Shown here: positions 35,745 through 57,989 of the stretch, piece after piece
How the letters are laid out: every line of letters starts with the position of its first letter
Numbering within the stretch: the stretch's first letter is position 1
Program-made: the position numbers and the translations under genes
The notes under the pieces: generated by a model
Seen by the model: the letters and a program-made list of their open reading frames with translations, nothing else
Database searches by the model: none
What the model was told of the DNA's origin: nothing
DNA from: Natrarchaeobius oligotrophus
GTDB taxonomy: Archaea > Halobacteriota > Halobacteria > Halobacteriales > Natrialbaceae
Reading direction: 5' to 3'
Length of the DNA stretch: 64,000 nt
Assembly: GCF_003841465.1 (NCBI RefSeq)
Contig: NZ_REFZ01000008.1
Coordinates: 124,001-188,000, forward strand

Positions 35745-36911
35745 ATGAGCACCGTCCGTGTCGCAGGAACGGGATTGACCCCGTTCGGAAACGTCCCCGA
35801 ACGAACGGGCCGAGACCTCTTCGCGGAGGCGAGCATCGCGGCGTTCGACGACAGCGGCGTCCCCCGCGAGGACGTCGAGGCCGTCTTCTACGGGAACTTC
35901 ATGGGTGAACTCGCCGAACACCAGGGCCACCAGGGGCCGCTCATGGCCGAGGCGGCGGGCGTGCAGGCTCCCGCCACGCGCTACGAGTCCGCCTGCGCCT
36001 CGAGCGGCGCGGCGGTCAGAGACGCCGTCTTCCGGATCCGAAACGGCGACGCCGACGTGGTCCTCGTCGGCGGGGCCGAGCGCATGACCAACCTCGGCAC
36101 CGCGGGGGCGACGGAGGCGCTCGCGATCGCCGCCGACGACCTCTGGGAGGTGCGCGCCGGGATGACCTTCCCCGGCGCGTACGCGCTGATGGCCCAGGCG
36201 TACTTCGCGGAGTACGGCGGCGAGCGCGAGGACCTCGCTCACGTCGCCGTGAAAAACCACGAGAACGCCCTCCCCAACGAGAAAGCGCAGTACCAGAGCG
36301 CGATCACCGTCGAGGACGTCCTCGAAGCGCCGCCGGTGTCCGCTCCGATCGGCCTCTACGACTCCTGTCCGATCTCCGACGGCGCGGCCGCGCTCGTGCT
36401 GACGAGCGAGGCCTACGCCGAGGAGCACGACCTCGACGCGCCGGTCGCGATCACCGGGACCGGACAGGGCGGCGACCGCATGGCGCTTCACGACCGCGAG
36501 CACCTCGCGCGTTCGCCGGCGGCTCGCGAGGCCGGCGAGGAGGCCTACGCCGACGCCGGCGTCGACGCGAGCGACGTCGACCTCGCCGAGGTCCACGACT
36601 GTTTCACCATCGCCGAGGTGCTCGCCATCGAGGCGCTCGACCTCGAGCGAATCGGCGAGGGGATCTCGGCGGCCCGCGACGGTCGGACGACCGCCGACGG
36701 GGAGACGCCGGTCAACCTCTCGGGCGGGCTGAAAGCGAAGGGCCACCCGGTTGGCGCGACCGGCGCGTCCCAGATCGCCGAGATCGCTACCCTCCTGACG
36801 GGCGACCATCCCAACGACGGGTACGTCGAAGACGCGACGATCGGCGTCGCCCACAACGCGGGTGGAACGGTCGCCAGCGCGACCGTCCACGTCCTGGAGG
36901 TGATCGCATGA
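35745..36911 (+). CDS. Thiolase family protein (acetyl-CoA C-acetyltransferase type)
   Basis: Thiolases join or split acyl-CoAs. The 388-residue protein has the acyl-accepting Cys in YESACASSGAAV, NEKAQYQ and SDGAAALVL motifs, VHDCFTIAE, the active-site His in KAKGHPVGATGASQ, and GVAHNAGGT. It is of the archaeal SCP2-like type that works with a separate DUF35 protein encoded next to it; in methanogens such a thiolase and DUF35 protein form a complex with HMG-CoA synthase. It may serve the mevalonate pathway or acyl-CoA metabolism. Its stop codon starts a chain of two overlapping micro-ORFs. Confidence 0.92.
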   Translation: MSTVRVAGTGLTPFGNVPERTGRDLFAEASIAAFDDSGVPREDVEAVFYGNFMGELAEHQGHQGPLMAEAAGVQAPATRYESACASSGAAVRDAVFRIRNGDADVVLVGGAERMTNLGTAGATEALAIAADDLWEVRAGMTFPGAYALMAQAYFAEYGGEREDLAHVAVKNHENALPNEKAQYQSAITVEDVLEAPPVSAPIGLYDSCPISDGAAALVLTSEAYAEEHDLDAPVAITGTGQGGDRMALHDREHLARSPAAREAGEEAYADAGVDASDVDLAEVHDCFTIAEVLAIEALDLERIGEGISAARDGRTTADGETPVNLSGGLKAKGHPVGATGASQIAEIATLLTGDHPNDGYVEDATIGVAHNAGGTVASATVHVLEVIA

Positions 36912-37010
36912 GCGAAGCGAATGCGATGACGCCAGTGCTTGCCCTGGGGGTGGTCGCATGAGCAAAGCGAATGCGATGACGCCAGTGCTTGCTCTGGGGG
37001 TGGTCGCATG
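36901..37010 (+). repeat. 50-bp tandem repeat, 2.2 copies, spanning the thiolase-DUF35 junction
   Basis: Copies are 36901-36950, 36951-37000 and a 10-bp start of a third at 37001-37010. The first two differ at three of 50 positions (A/G at 3, G/A at 14, C/T at 43). Each copy begins with the thiolase 3' end sequence (TGRTCGCATG) and contains one ATG. Because the period is 50, the reading frame shifts by one each time, which produces the micro-ORF chain. Confidence 0.95.
36908..36961 (+). CDS. 17-residue micro-ORF 1, chained by ATGA overlaps
   Basis: ATG at 36908 overlaps the thiolase TGA (36909-36911) and the frame runs 17 codons (MSEANAMTPVLALGVVA) to a TGA at 36959-36961, which in turn overlaps the ATG of the second micro-ORF. 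Translation from coupled reinitiation is possible. It may equally be only a relay that keeps ribosomes moving to the DUF35 start. No homologue is recognised. Confidence 0.4.
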   Translation: MSEANAMTPVLALGVVA

Positions 37011-37011
37011 A
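36958..37011 (+). CDS. 17-residue micro-ORF 2, near-identical to micro-ORF 1
   Basis: The frame from ATG 36958 encodes MSKANAMTPVLALGVVA, differing from micro-ORF 1 by Glu to Lys at position 3 and one silent change. Its TGA (37009-37011) overlaps the DUF35 ATG at 37008. It therefore completes a chain of four ORFs joined by three successive ATGA overlaps. Confidence 0.4.
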   Translation: MSKANAMTPVLALGVVA

Positions 37012-37409
37012 CCGACGGAGCACGCGGCGCACAGAACGCCGGCTTCGACGACTGGCTCGACGCCGCCGAGGAGGCGTCGGGGTACTACCTCGAGTGTCCG
37101 AACGGTCACGGCTCGCTGCCGCCGCGGCGGGTCTGTCCCGACTGCGGCGCGACGGACCTCGCGGACGCGCCGCTTCCAGAGACCGGCGCGGTCGAGACGT
37201 TCACGATCACGCACGTCCCGACGCCCGCCTTCGAGGACGACGCGCCGTACGCGACGGCCATCGCGGAGTTCGGCCCGGTTCGACTCACCGGCCAGGTCGT
37301 CGGCGTCGACCCCGGCGACGTCCACTCCGGACTCGAGGTCGAACTCGAGATCGCGGTCTCGCAGACGACGGGCGACCGGGTGCTCGGGTTCGCGCCGGTT
37401 TCGGGCTGA
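37008..37409 (+). CDS. Zn-ribbon/OB-fold protein (DUF35), thiolase partner
   Basis: DUF35 proteins channel acyl-CoA or acyl intermediates between thiolase and HMG-CoA synthase in archaea. The 133-residue protein has an N-terminal helix (FDDWLDAAEEASGYYLECP), a zinc ribbon (CPNGHGSLPPRRVCPDCG) and an OB-fold (VETFTITHVP, YATAIAEFGPVRLTGQVVGVD). The start at 37008 is chosen since it directly precedes the DUF35 N terminus and overlaps micro-ORF 2's stop; the in-frame region further upstream lies in the tandem repeat. Confidence 0.9.
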   Translation: MTDGARGAQNAGFDDWLDAAEEASGYYLECPNGHGSLPPRRVCPDCGATDLADAPLPETGAVETFTITHVPTPAFEDDAPYATAIAEFGPVRLTGQVVGVDPGDVHSGLEVELEIAVSQTTGDRVLGFAPVSG

Positions 37410-45572: not shown

Positions 45573-46262
45573 ATGAAACGGCGCGAGCTCGTCGCCGGCG
45601 TCGCCAGCCTGGGAGTGCTCGCCGGGGCCGGCGGAATCCTGTCCCGCGGTCTGCCGACGTTCGAAGCGAGCGACGATGGTGGCTCCGACGACGACTCCTC
45701 GAGCGCGCCGGCGGAGATCCGGACGATCGACGCACCCGGAAGCGCGGCCGGGACGATCACCGTTCCGACCGACGGCGTCAGCGTGGTGACGTTCTTCGTC
45801 ACCGGCTGCGGCCAGTGTCAGGCCCAGGTTTCCGGGGTCGGTCGGGCACGGTCGACGCTGGTCGACCGGTACGGCGACGCGGTGACCGCGCTGTGGCTCA
45901 CCTACCAGACCCCGGAGACGATGCCCGAAGACGAGCTTCGAGAGTGGTGGGCGGAGCTTGGCGGAAACTGGCTCGTCGGCTACGATCCGACGCCCAGCAT
46001 CGCGGCGACCTACGGCGCGGTCGGCTACCCCGTTACGATCGTTATCGACGAGGACGGCGAGAAACGCTGGCACGAAAACGGCGTACAGGCGGCCGACAGA
46101 ATCGTCCGGGCGGTCGAGTCGGTACTCGAGGAAGAAACCGGTGGCTCCGACGAGTCTGACGGTTCCGACGGAATCGACGAGGCTGACGGCTCCGACGGAA
46201 CCAACGAGGCTGACGGCTCCGACGAGAATGCCGGAACCAATGAGACTGTCGGAGCCGTCTGA
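45573..46262 (+). CDS. Tat-exported TlpA-like thiol-disulfide protein
   Basis: The 229-residue protein starts with a twin-arginine-like signal (KRRELVAGVASLGVLAGAGG), followed by a thioredoxin fold with an intact CxxC (TGCGQCQAQ) and cis-Pro region (GAVGYPVTIVIDEDG). The segment EIRTIDAPGSAAGTITV is nearly the same as in the 44029 paralogue (EIATIDAPGSEAGTTTV). The last 35 residues are a DGSDG/NEADGSD repeat. It probably reduces or transfers disulfides outside the cell, perhaps in cytochrome maturation. Confidence 0.85.
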   Translation: MKRRELVAGVASLGVLAGAGGILSRGLPTFEASDDGGSDDDSSSAPAEIRTIDAPGSAAGTITVPTDGVSVVTFFVTGCGQCQAQVSGVGRARSTLVDRYGDAVTALWLTYQTPETMPEDELREWWAELGGNWLVGYDPTPSIAATYGAVGYPVTIVIDEDGEKRWHENGVQAADRIVRAVESVLEEETGGSDESDGSDGIDEADGSDGTNEADGSDENAGTNETVGAV

Positions 46263-57348: not shown

Positions 57349-57408
57349 GCCACCGCGGACTGCGACGGTCCGGCGTCACCGCGTACGGGATAACCACGGG
57401 CCGCTCGC

Positions 57409-57495
57409 GGTCCCACCGAAACTAACGGACAAGAGGCCGCGGTCTCACCGGAACTAACGGACAAGAGGCCGCGGTCTCACCGGAACTAACGGACG
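57409..57495 (+). repeat. 32-bp tandem repeat, 2.7 copies, between pcc1 and pfdB
   Basis: Units are 57409-57440, 57441-57472 and 57473-57495 (23 bp). The unit reads GGTCTCACCGGAACTAACGG followed by ACAAGAGGCCGC; unit 1 differs at two or three positions, units 2 and 3 agree. No spacers, so not CRISPR. It ends about 70 bp before the pfdB TATA box. Confidence 0.9.
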
Positions 57496-57596: not shown

Positions 57597-57989
57597 ATGC
57601 AAGGAAATCTGCCGCCGGAAGCACAGGAGAAAATCGAACAGCTTCAGGACCTTCAGGAGACCGCACAGACGGTCGCCGTCCAGAAACAGGAGGCCGAATC
57701 GACCCTCACCGAAGCGGAAAACGCCCTCGAGGAACTCGAGAACATCGACGACGACACCGCGATGTACCGCCAGGTCGGCGAACTCCTCGTCGAGACGGAG
57801 TACGACGAGGCCGAGTCGGAACTCGAGGACAAAGTGAACACTCTCGAGATTCGCCTCGAGACACTCGAGAAGCAAGAAGACCGCGTTCAACAGCAGTTCG
57901 AGGACCTCCAGGAGGACCTCGAGAGCCTGCTCGGCGGCATGGGTGGCGGCCCGGCGGGTCCCGGCGGTCCGGGCGCTGGCGGCGCGTAG
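57597..57989 (+). CDS. pfdB: Prefoldin subunit beta
   Basis: Prefoldin captures unfolded proteins and hands them to the thermosome. The 130-residue beta subunit has two coiled-coil helices ([20 protein letters not shown] and [20 protein letters not shown]) around the beta-hairpins ([15 protein letters not shown]). The C-terminal Gly/Pro tail ([18 protein letters not shown]) is a feature of haloarchaeal homologues. It is followed without spacing by the DUF3194 gene. Confidence 0.95.

Follow-up and report, generated by a model that had tools for sequence, protein, structure and literature searches.

The window analysed here, 64,000 nt of the Natrarchaeobius oligotrophus contig NZ_REFZ01000008.1 (positions 124,001–188,000 of the forward strand), raises the question of why two tandem 17-codon open reading frames (ORFs) should link a thiolase gene (stop at 36911) to a DUF35 gene (start at 37008). 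We consider it very likely that this insert of two 50-nt units (36908–37007) is a tandem pair of translational relay elements, of a haloarchaeal type that occurs at stop/start-overlapping gene pairs. Such an element is a repeat of 50 or 59 nt with two hairpins, placed between the Shine–Dalgarno (SD) motif of the second gene and its start codon.

All features of the locus lie on the forward strand. The upstream gene (35745–36911) encodes a thiolase domain protein of 388 aa with the C-terminal sequence VLEVIA, recognized by Pfam PF00108 and PF22691 and by ortholog alignments, and the downstream gene (37008–37409) encodes a DUF35/OB-fold thiolase partner of 133 aa (PF01796); the gene identities proposed in the initial annotation are thus correct. 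The annotated start of the Natribaculum luteum ortholog of DUF35 is likewise the ATG following the insert. Relay ORF 1 (36908–36961; MSEANAMTPVLALGVVA, followed by a stop codon) starts within the thiolase stop and ends within the start of relay ORF 2 (36958–37011; MSKANAMTPVLALGVVA, also followed by a stop codon), which overlaps the start of DUF35. The ATGs at 36908, 36958 and 37008 each share an ATGA with a TGA, and the tandem micro-ORFs with three such overlaps, as first described, are borne out by these positions and by Tandem Repeats Finder (36893–37011, period 50, 2.4 copies, 94% matches, score 210, above that of any other repeat in the window). Because a period of 50 equals 2 modulo 3, one ATGA is chained to the next. 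Aligned from ATG to ATG, the units have two differences in 50 positions, one replacing Glu3 by Lys and the other a silent GCC/GCT change; the third difference counted initially appears only if the left flank is included. The motif GGNGGTG-N5-RTGA occurs three times in the window, always at the overlaps of the insert, against 0.08 occurrences expected.

For comparison, 153 distinct thiolase–DUF35 junctions were examined. The two genes overlap directly, by ATGA or TGATG, at 114 junctions, and inserts are present at the other 39, every one of which links the genes by a closed chain, made up of one to five ORFs (13–41 codons each, 38–295 nt in total). The closure probability is 0.19 for shuffled inserts of jittered length. 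After indels of 1 or 2 nt, 13–26% of the real inserts are still closed, in contrast to 95–99% after indels of 3 nt. Thirteen inserts were found via thiolase homology alone, without any search for the element, and all of them are closed, including one (L298) in which a 13-codon relay has a sequence outside the hairpin family. The initial annotation had suggested a translational relay, which might set the thiolase:DUF35 ratio, as one explanation and had named broken frames in related junctions as an outcome that would refute it. Such frames were sought and none was found in the 153 loci, which gives the relay strong comparative support. As far as sequences can tell, there are strong indications that chain closure is kept by selection.

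The distribution of the inserts is patchy. On the thiolase tree, their presence and absence require at least 25 changes, 16 of which are forced by well-supported branches. Within the genus of the window, two species have a direct ATGA/GTGA overlap and a third has a single 59-nt unit, compared with two 50-nt units in the window. Single or double inserts of 50, 53 or 59 nt occur in Haloterrigena, Natribaculum, Halorientalis and a Natrinema paralog. Insertion is a more probable origin than repeated loss, given how widespread direct junctions are. The longest array seen consists of five tandem 59-nt relay units at a thiolase–DUF35 junction (L170, G183:C3:2636435-2636745). Where units measure 51 or 60 nt (frame +1), the two ORFs of two-unit arrays are fused into one closed relay of 37–40 codons, and single 60-nt units form an in-frame N-terminal extension of the downstream gene. 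At an Fe–S subunit junction, where the genes overlap by 8 nt, the relay has an 8-nt overlap at both ends in several genomes; chains that seemed broken at this junction proved to be only apparently so and vanished once 8-nt overlaps were allowed. Relatives of the aconitase and electron transfer flavoprotein (ETF) loci that lack the element have a direct overlap in every locus examined.

The element is not restricted to thiolase operons. A first scan of 292 Halobacteria genomes for two SD-RTGA sites 41–71 nt apart, with no requirement on frame, gave matches in 28 genomes and none in a reversed control. Most matches belong to one sequence family, and in nearly all matches a micro-ORF stops precisely at the second start. 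Such inserts served to build a covariance model, which detected the element in 163 of the same 292 genomes, representing 57 of 77 genera, although the weakest of these matches may not be true members. Within the phylum but outside Halobacteria, a search of about 160 genomes gave only two marginal matches, and the curated covariance models of Rfam did not match the element. According to Pfam, the flanking pairs include thiolase and DUF35, ETF beta and alpha, aconitase large and small subunits, glycine decarboxylase P1 and P2, phosphotransferase system EIIA and HPr, L18e and L13, ATP-binding cassette (ABC) ATPase and permease, COX1 and a small protein, haloacid dehalogenase (HAD) and aldolase, and CofD and a Dus-like protein, among others. 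In two annotated records that were checked, the relay ORFs are unannotated and the downstream start is annotated at the ATG after the insert. Many weak model matches (below about 50 bits) lie between genes without a chain; we did not accept them as the same element, and they may be separate GC-rich hairpins. Intergenic double hairpins of similar layout but without a relay ORF, such as GTCTGCACGAGCGAAGCGAGTGCAGGCTCGTCAGAGC..GCTCTGACGGTGG, were seen at several loci (L203, L213, L217, L224, L233, L235 and L225–L228), and another one (L232; G138:C1, 1666-1725) appears, by eye, to lie inside a tRNA-like sequence, perhaps in an intron.

Dispersal of this kind would also be expected of a selfish or inert hairpin repeat, similar to mycobacterial interspersed repetitive units (MIRUs) or repetitive extragenic palindromes (REPs), which spreads as DNA, has no regulatory role and carries the relay ORF as the minimum needed to be harmless. 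The many unrelated junctions in 57 genera, the patchy presence with its many gains or losses, the copy number varying within one genus (2, 1, 0, 0) and the weaker double hairpins outside coupled junctions all agree with such a repeat, and MIRUs have been described in these terms (PMC12548453). However, no identical copies were seen at unrelated loci within one genome. A virus or phage origin was considered, but phage records and viral contigs contained no matches. Moreover, compensatory changes maintain the start-site stem (see below), which a dead repeat need not do. We see the chances of this explanation as evenly balanced.

The flanks of the inserts indicate where the element lies. The thiolase C-terminus reads EV[VI]A at 25 of the 39 junctions with inserts, compared with 1 of the 114 direct junctions. 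Spacers preceding the upstream stop are uniform (3.2 bits), whereas those preceding DUF35 are more varied (5.7 bits), with 7.7 bits for direct junctions. At ETF and aconitase junctions, the left flank up to the SD and the right flank from the start codon match insert-free relatives. Taken together, these data place the element between SD and start. Judging from the flanks, the ORF of the element would take over the native SD, and its 3' end would supply a new one to the downstream gene. In the window, the SD-like GGAGGTG inside the end of the thiolase gene (36896–36902) is, by comparison with insert-free relatives, the native SD, which would now serve relay ORF 1. Sequence inspection and a motif scan place SD-like GGGGGTG motifs at the 3' ends of unit 1 (36946–36952) and unit 2 (36996–37002), the latter for the DUF35 start.

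What such an insert would do to translation can be considered in the light of work on Haloferax volcanii. That work reports strict coupling in nine of nine tested gene pairs, overlapping or a few nt apart, and an SD that does not sustain de novo initiation (PMC6728339). Under these two conditions, an insert should shut off the second gene if ribosomes had no way across it, and consequently only inserts that keep the chain should be tolerated. The relay ORF would offer such a passage, as it would be entered through the native SD and an ATG overlapping the upstream stop, and left through a TGA overlapping the downstream start, which would receive the new SD of the repeat. At our locus, ribosomes that have completed thiolase would restart on relay ORF 1, stop at its end and restart again on relay ORF 2 before reaching DUF35, and the hairpins over the start sites would further restrict the entry of other ribosomes. 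The relay ORFs are probably translated and, given the published strict coupling, the most likely role of the relay is to keep the downstream gene translated.

Each unit is composed of an arm copied in inverse and flanked by two direct copies of the junction. The SD–start spacer and the start codon pair with the inner arm to form the first stem, and the second hairpin extends into the next SD. In unit 1, hairpin 1 (36904–36926) joins TCGCAT (36904–36909) to ATGCGA (36921–36926), its stem taking in the first bases of the start codon, and hairpin 2 (36932–36947) joins CCAG (36932–36935) to CTGG (36944–36947). The corresponding structures of unit 2 are hairpin 1 at 36954–36976 (TCGCAT, 36954–36959, with ATGCGA, 36971–36976) and hairpin 2 at 36982–36997 (CCAG, 36982–36985, with CTGG, 36994–36997). 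Both hairpins are backed by covariation at the level of the family, including sequences that had no part in building the model. Two-sided changes number 44 in 33 sequences, versus 10.6 in shuffles, and 67, versus 18.7, in 38 sequences outside the training set, which were aligned by MAFFT without structure but, having been found with the model, are somewhat biased to its structure. In these 38 sequences, the signal is lost when the partner is shifted by one column, and the start codon base itself covaries, ATG occurring with U and GTG with C (A–U 19, G–C 16). The hairpins probably act in the mRNA.

The same sequences bear on a further interpretation, according to which the insert is a bistable mRNA switch. 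Its inner arm would have two alternative partners, the start site upstream or the SD and start downstream, so that translation of the relay would gate the second gene and tune the subunit ratio. In the 38 sequences, covariation is seen for both of these alternative helices, and many of the junctions connect subunits of one complex. Folding with standard-salt parameters, which are unsuited to molar KCl, predicts that opening the DUF35 start costs 11.9 kcal/mol with the insert versus 8.7 kcal/mol at direct junctions (p about 1e-4). The predicted cost falls from 11.9 to 8.8 kcal/mol when the relay region is held open. However, covariation of the alternative helix is not independent evidence, because the two junction copies are near-repeats and covariation with one implies covariation with the other. 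In addition, many of the J2 arms no longer match, and relatives without the insert manage without it. A switch of this type is conceivable, yet we are doubtful of it. We also think it unlikely that the whole forms a class-wide mobile relay family which inserts between SD and start, rebuilds the 4- or 8-nt overlap on both sides and acts as a bistable switch gating and tuning the second subunit of enzyme complexes.

Several points weigh against our own interpretation of the insert as a translational relay element. The inserts share ancestry, and consequently the 39 closures cannot each be counted as an independent test; both unit lengths, 50 and 59 nt, equal 2 modulo 3; and many of the 39 inserts were detected by a model for which closed examples had served as the training set. 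The additional occlusion predicted for the DUF35 start is modest. Finally, both hairpins are strong in DNA too, and the structure could belong to the repeat at the DNA level.

Two other possibilities had been raised for the micro-ORFs. A functional micropeptide family could be suspected from the conserved LEVVA ends and the near identity of the two ORFs, but the 50- and 59-nt types translate their common core DNA in different frames (ANASTPVLALEVVA versus SERMRVRQSFALEVVA), and hence the peptides are not conserved; fused versions of 37–57 codons occur, and the common C-terminus is explained by the SD (GAGGTG encoding EV). We find this explanation extremely improbable. A neutral and recent event that duplicated the native junction in tandem, with neither a family nor selection on frame, would account for the 48 of 50 positions identical between the window units, but hardly for the same unit type in many genera and at unrelated genes, nor for the chain kept by every insert, and is very unlikely. 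As the origin of the insert, simple duplication of the junction can be rejected because the unit belongs to a family dispersed at many other junctions. Nevertheless, the second copy in the window looks like a recent tandem duplication, for which a neutral event is plausible.

Chained ORFs were also met in other contexts. On a Halorussus aquaticus plasmid (NZ_CP100401.1, L385), two ABC permease genes are separated by two chained relays, first one of 15 codons with an unrelated sequence and then a family element of 20 codons. At another locus (L116, G078:C3:712002-712122), two genes are separated by three 35-nt relay ORFs in tandem, each with 12 codons (MRAERARLEVTA, MRTELPRLEVAA and MRADRASQEVAT) and with a sequence unlike the hairpin family. 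An apparent relay insert (L117, G211:C13:33485-33568) holds AGATGTGTATAAGAGACAG, which resembles a sequencing adapter, and is therefore probably an assembly artefact. The window itself carries two more tandem repeats: a 32-nt repeat with CACCGGAACTAACGGACAAGAGGCCGCGGTCT units (57406–57494, 2.8 copies, 96%), directly upstream of a 130-aa ORF at 57597 that is prefoldin beta-like by eye, and a 27-nt repeat (46148–46229, 3 copies, 89%) with a period that is a multiple of three.

These observations point to an archaeal counterpart of MIRUs, suggest real selection on coupling at overlapping genes throughout Halobacteria and would account for unannotated ORFs of 12–57 codons between operon genes. Relatives with zero to five relay ORFs at one junction constitute a natural library suited to gauging the efficiency of ribosome reinitiation, and the elements could serve as ready-made parts for setting expression ratios in haloarchaea.

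Among known systems, the mycobacterial MIRU is the closest, although we do not class the element as a MIRU. MIRUs were reportedly described by Supply et al. in 1997 as repeats that occur in tandem copies and are inserted into operons at DTGA sites. The haloarchaeal element similarly lies where stop and start overlap as NTGA, has an ORF of its own that overlaps the genes on either side, is dispersed at several loci and varies in tandem copy number (1–5 units); it differs in being archaeal and 50 or 59 nt long, in its two covarying hairpins, in its position between SD and start and in forming chains of up to five ORFs. In the literature searched, with most subscription journals outside its coverage, no archaeal precedent was found. 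REPs, REPINs (REP doublets forming hairpins) and GTAG- and CGTC-tagged palindromes are also short dispersed hairpins near or overlapping gene ends, and GTAG REPs are able to provide a stop codon (PMC3733652). In contrast, our element is a paired double hairpin that includes an SD and signals for start and stop, has one orientation at coupled junctions and apparently lacks a GTAG tag; the foot of its hairpin 2 is GTACGCC, and its weak intergenic cousins have CGTC within the stem. Translational coupling by RNA unfolding likewise involves a structure-masked start site opened by upstream translation (PMC12548453, PMC6728339), whereas the element has its masking arm within an inserted repeat that contains an ORF. 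The relay would rely on termination–reinitiation as it occurs at ATGA overlaps in haloarchaea; the available text on it deals with direct gene–gene overlaps and describes no inserted relay ORF (PMC6728339). The junctions of the window have the layout of such coupled pairs, a stop/start overlap (ATGA or TGATG) with an SD upstream.
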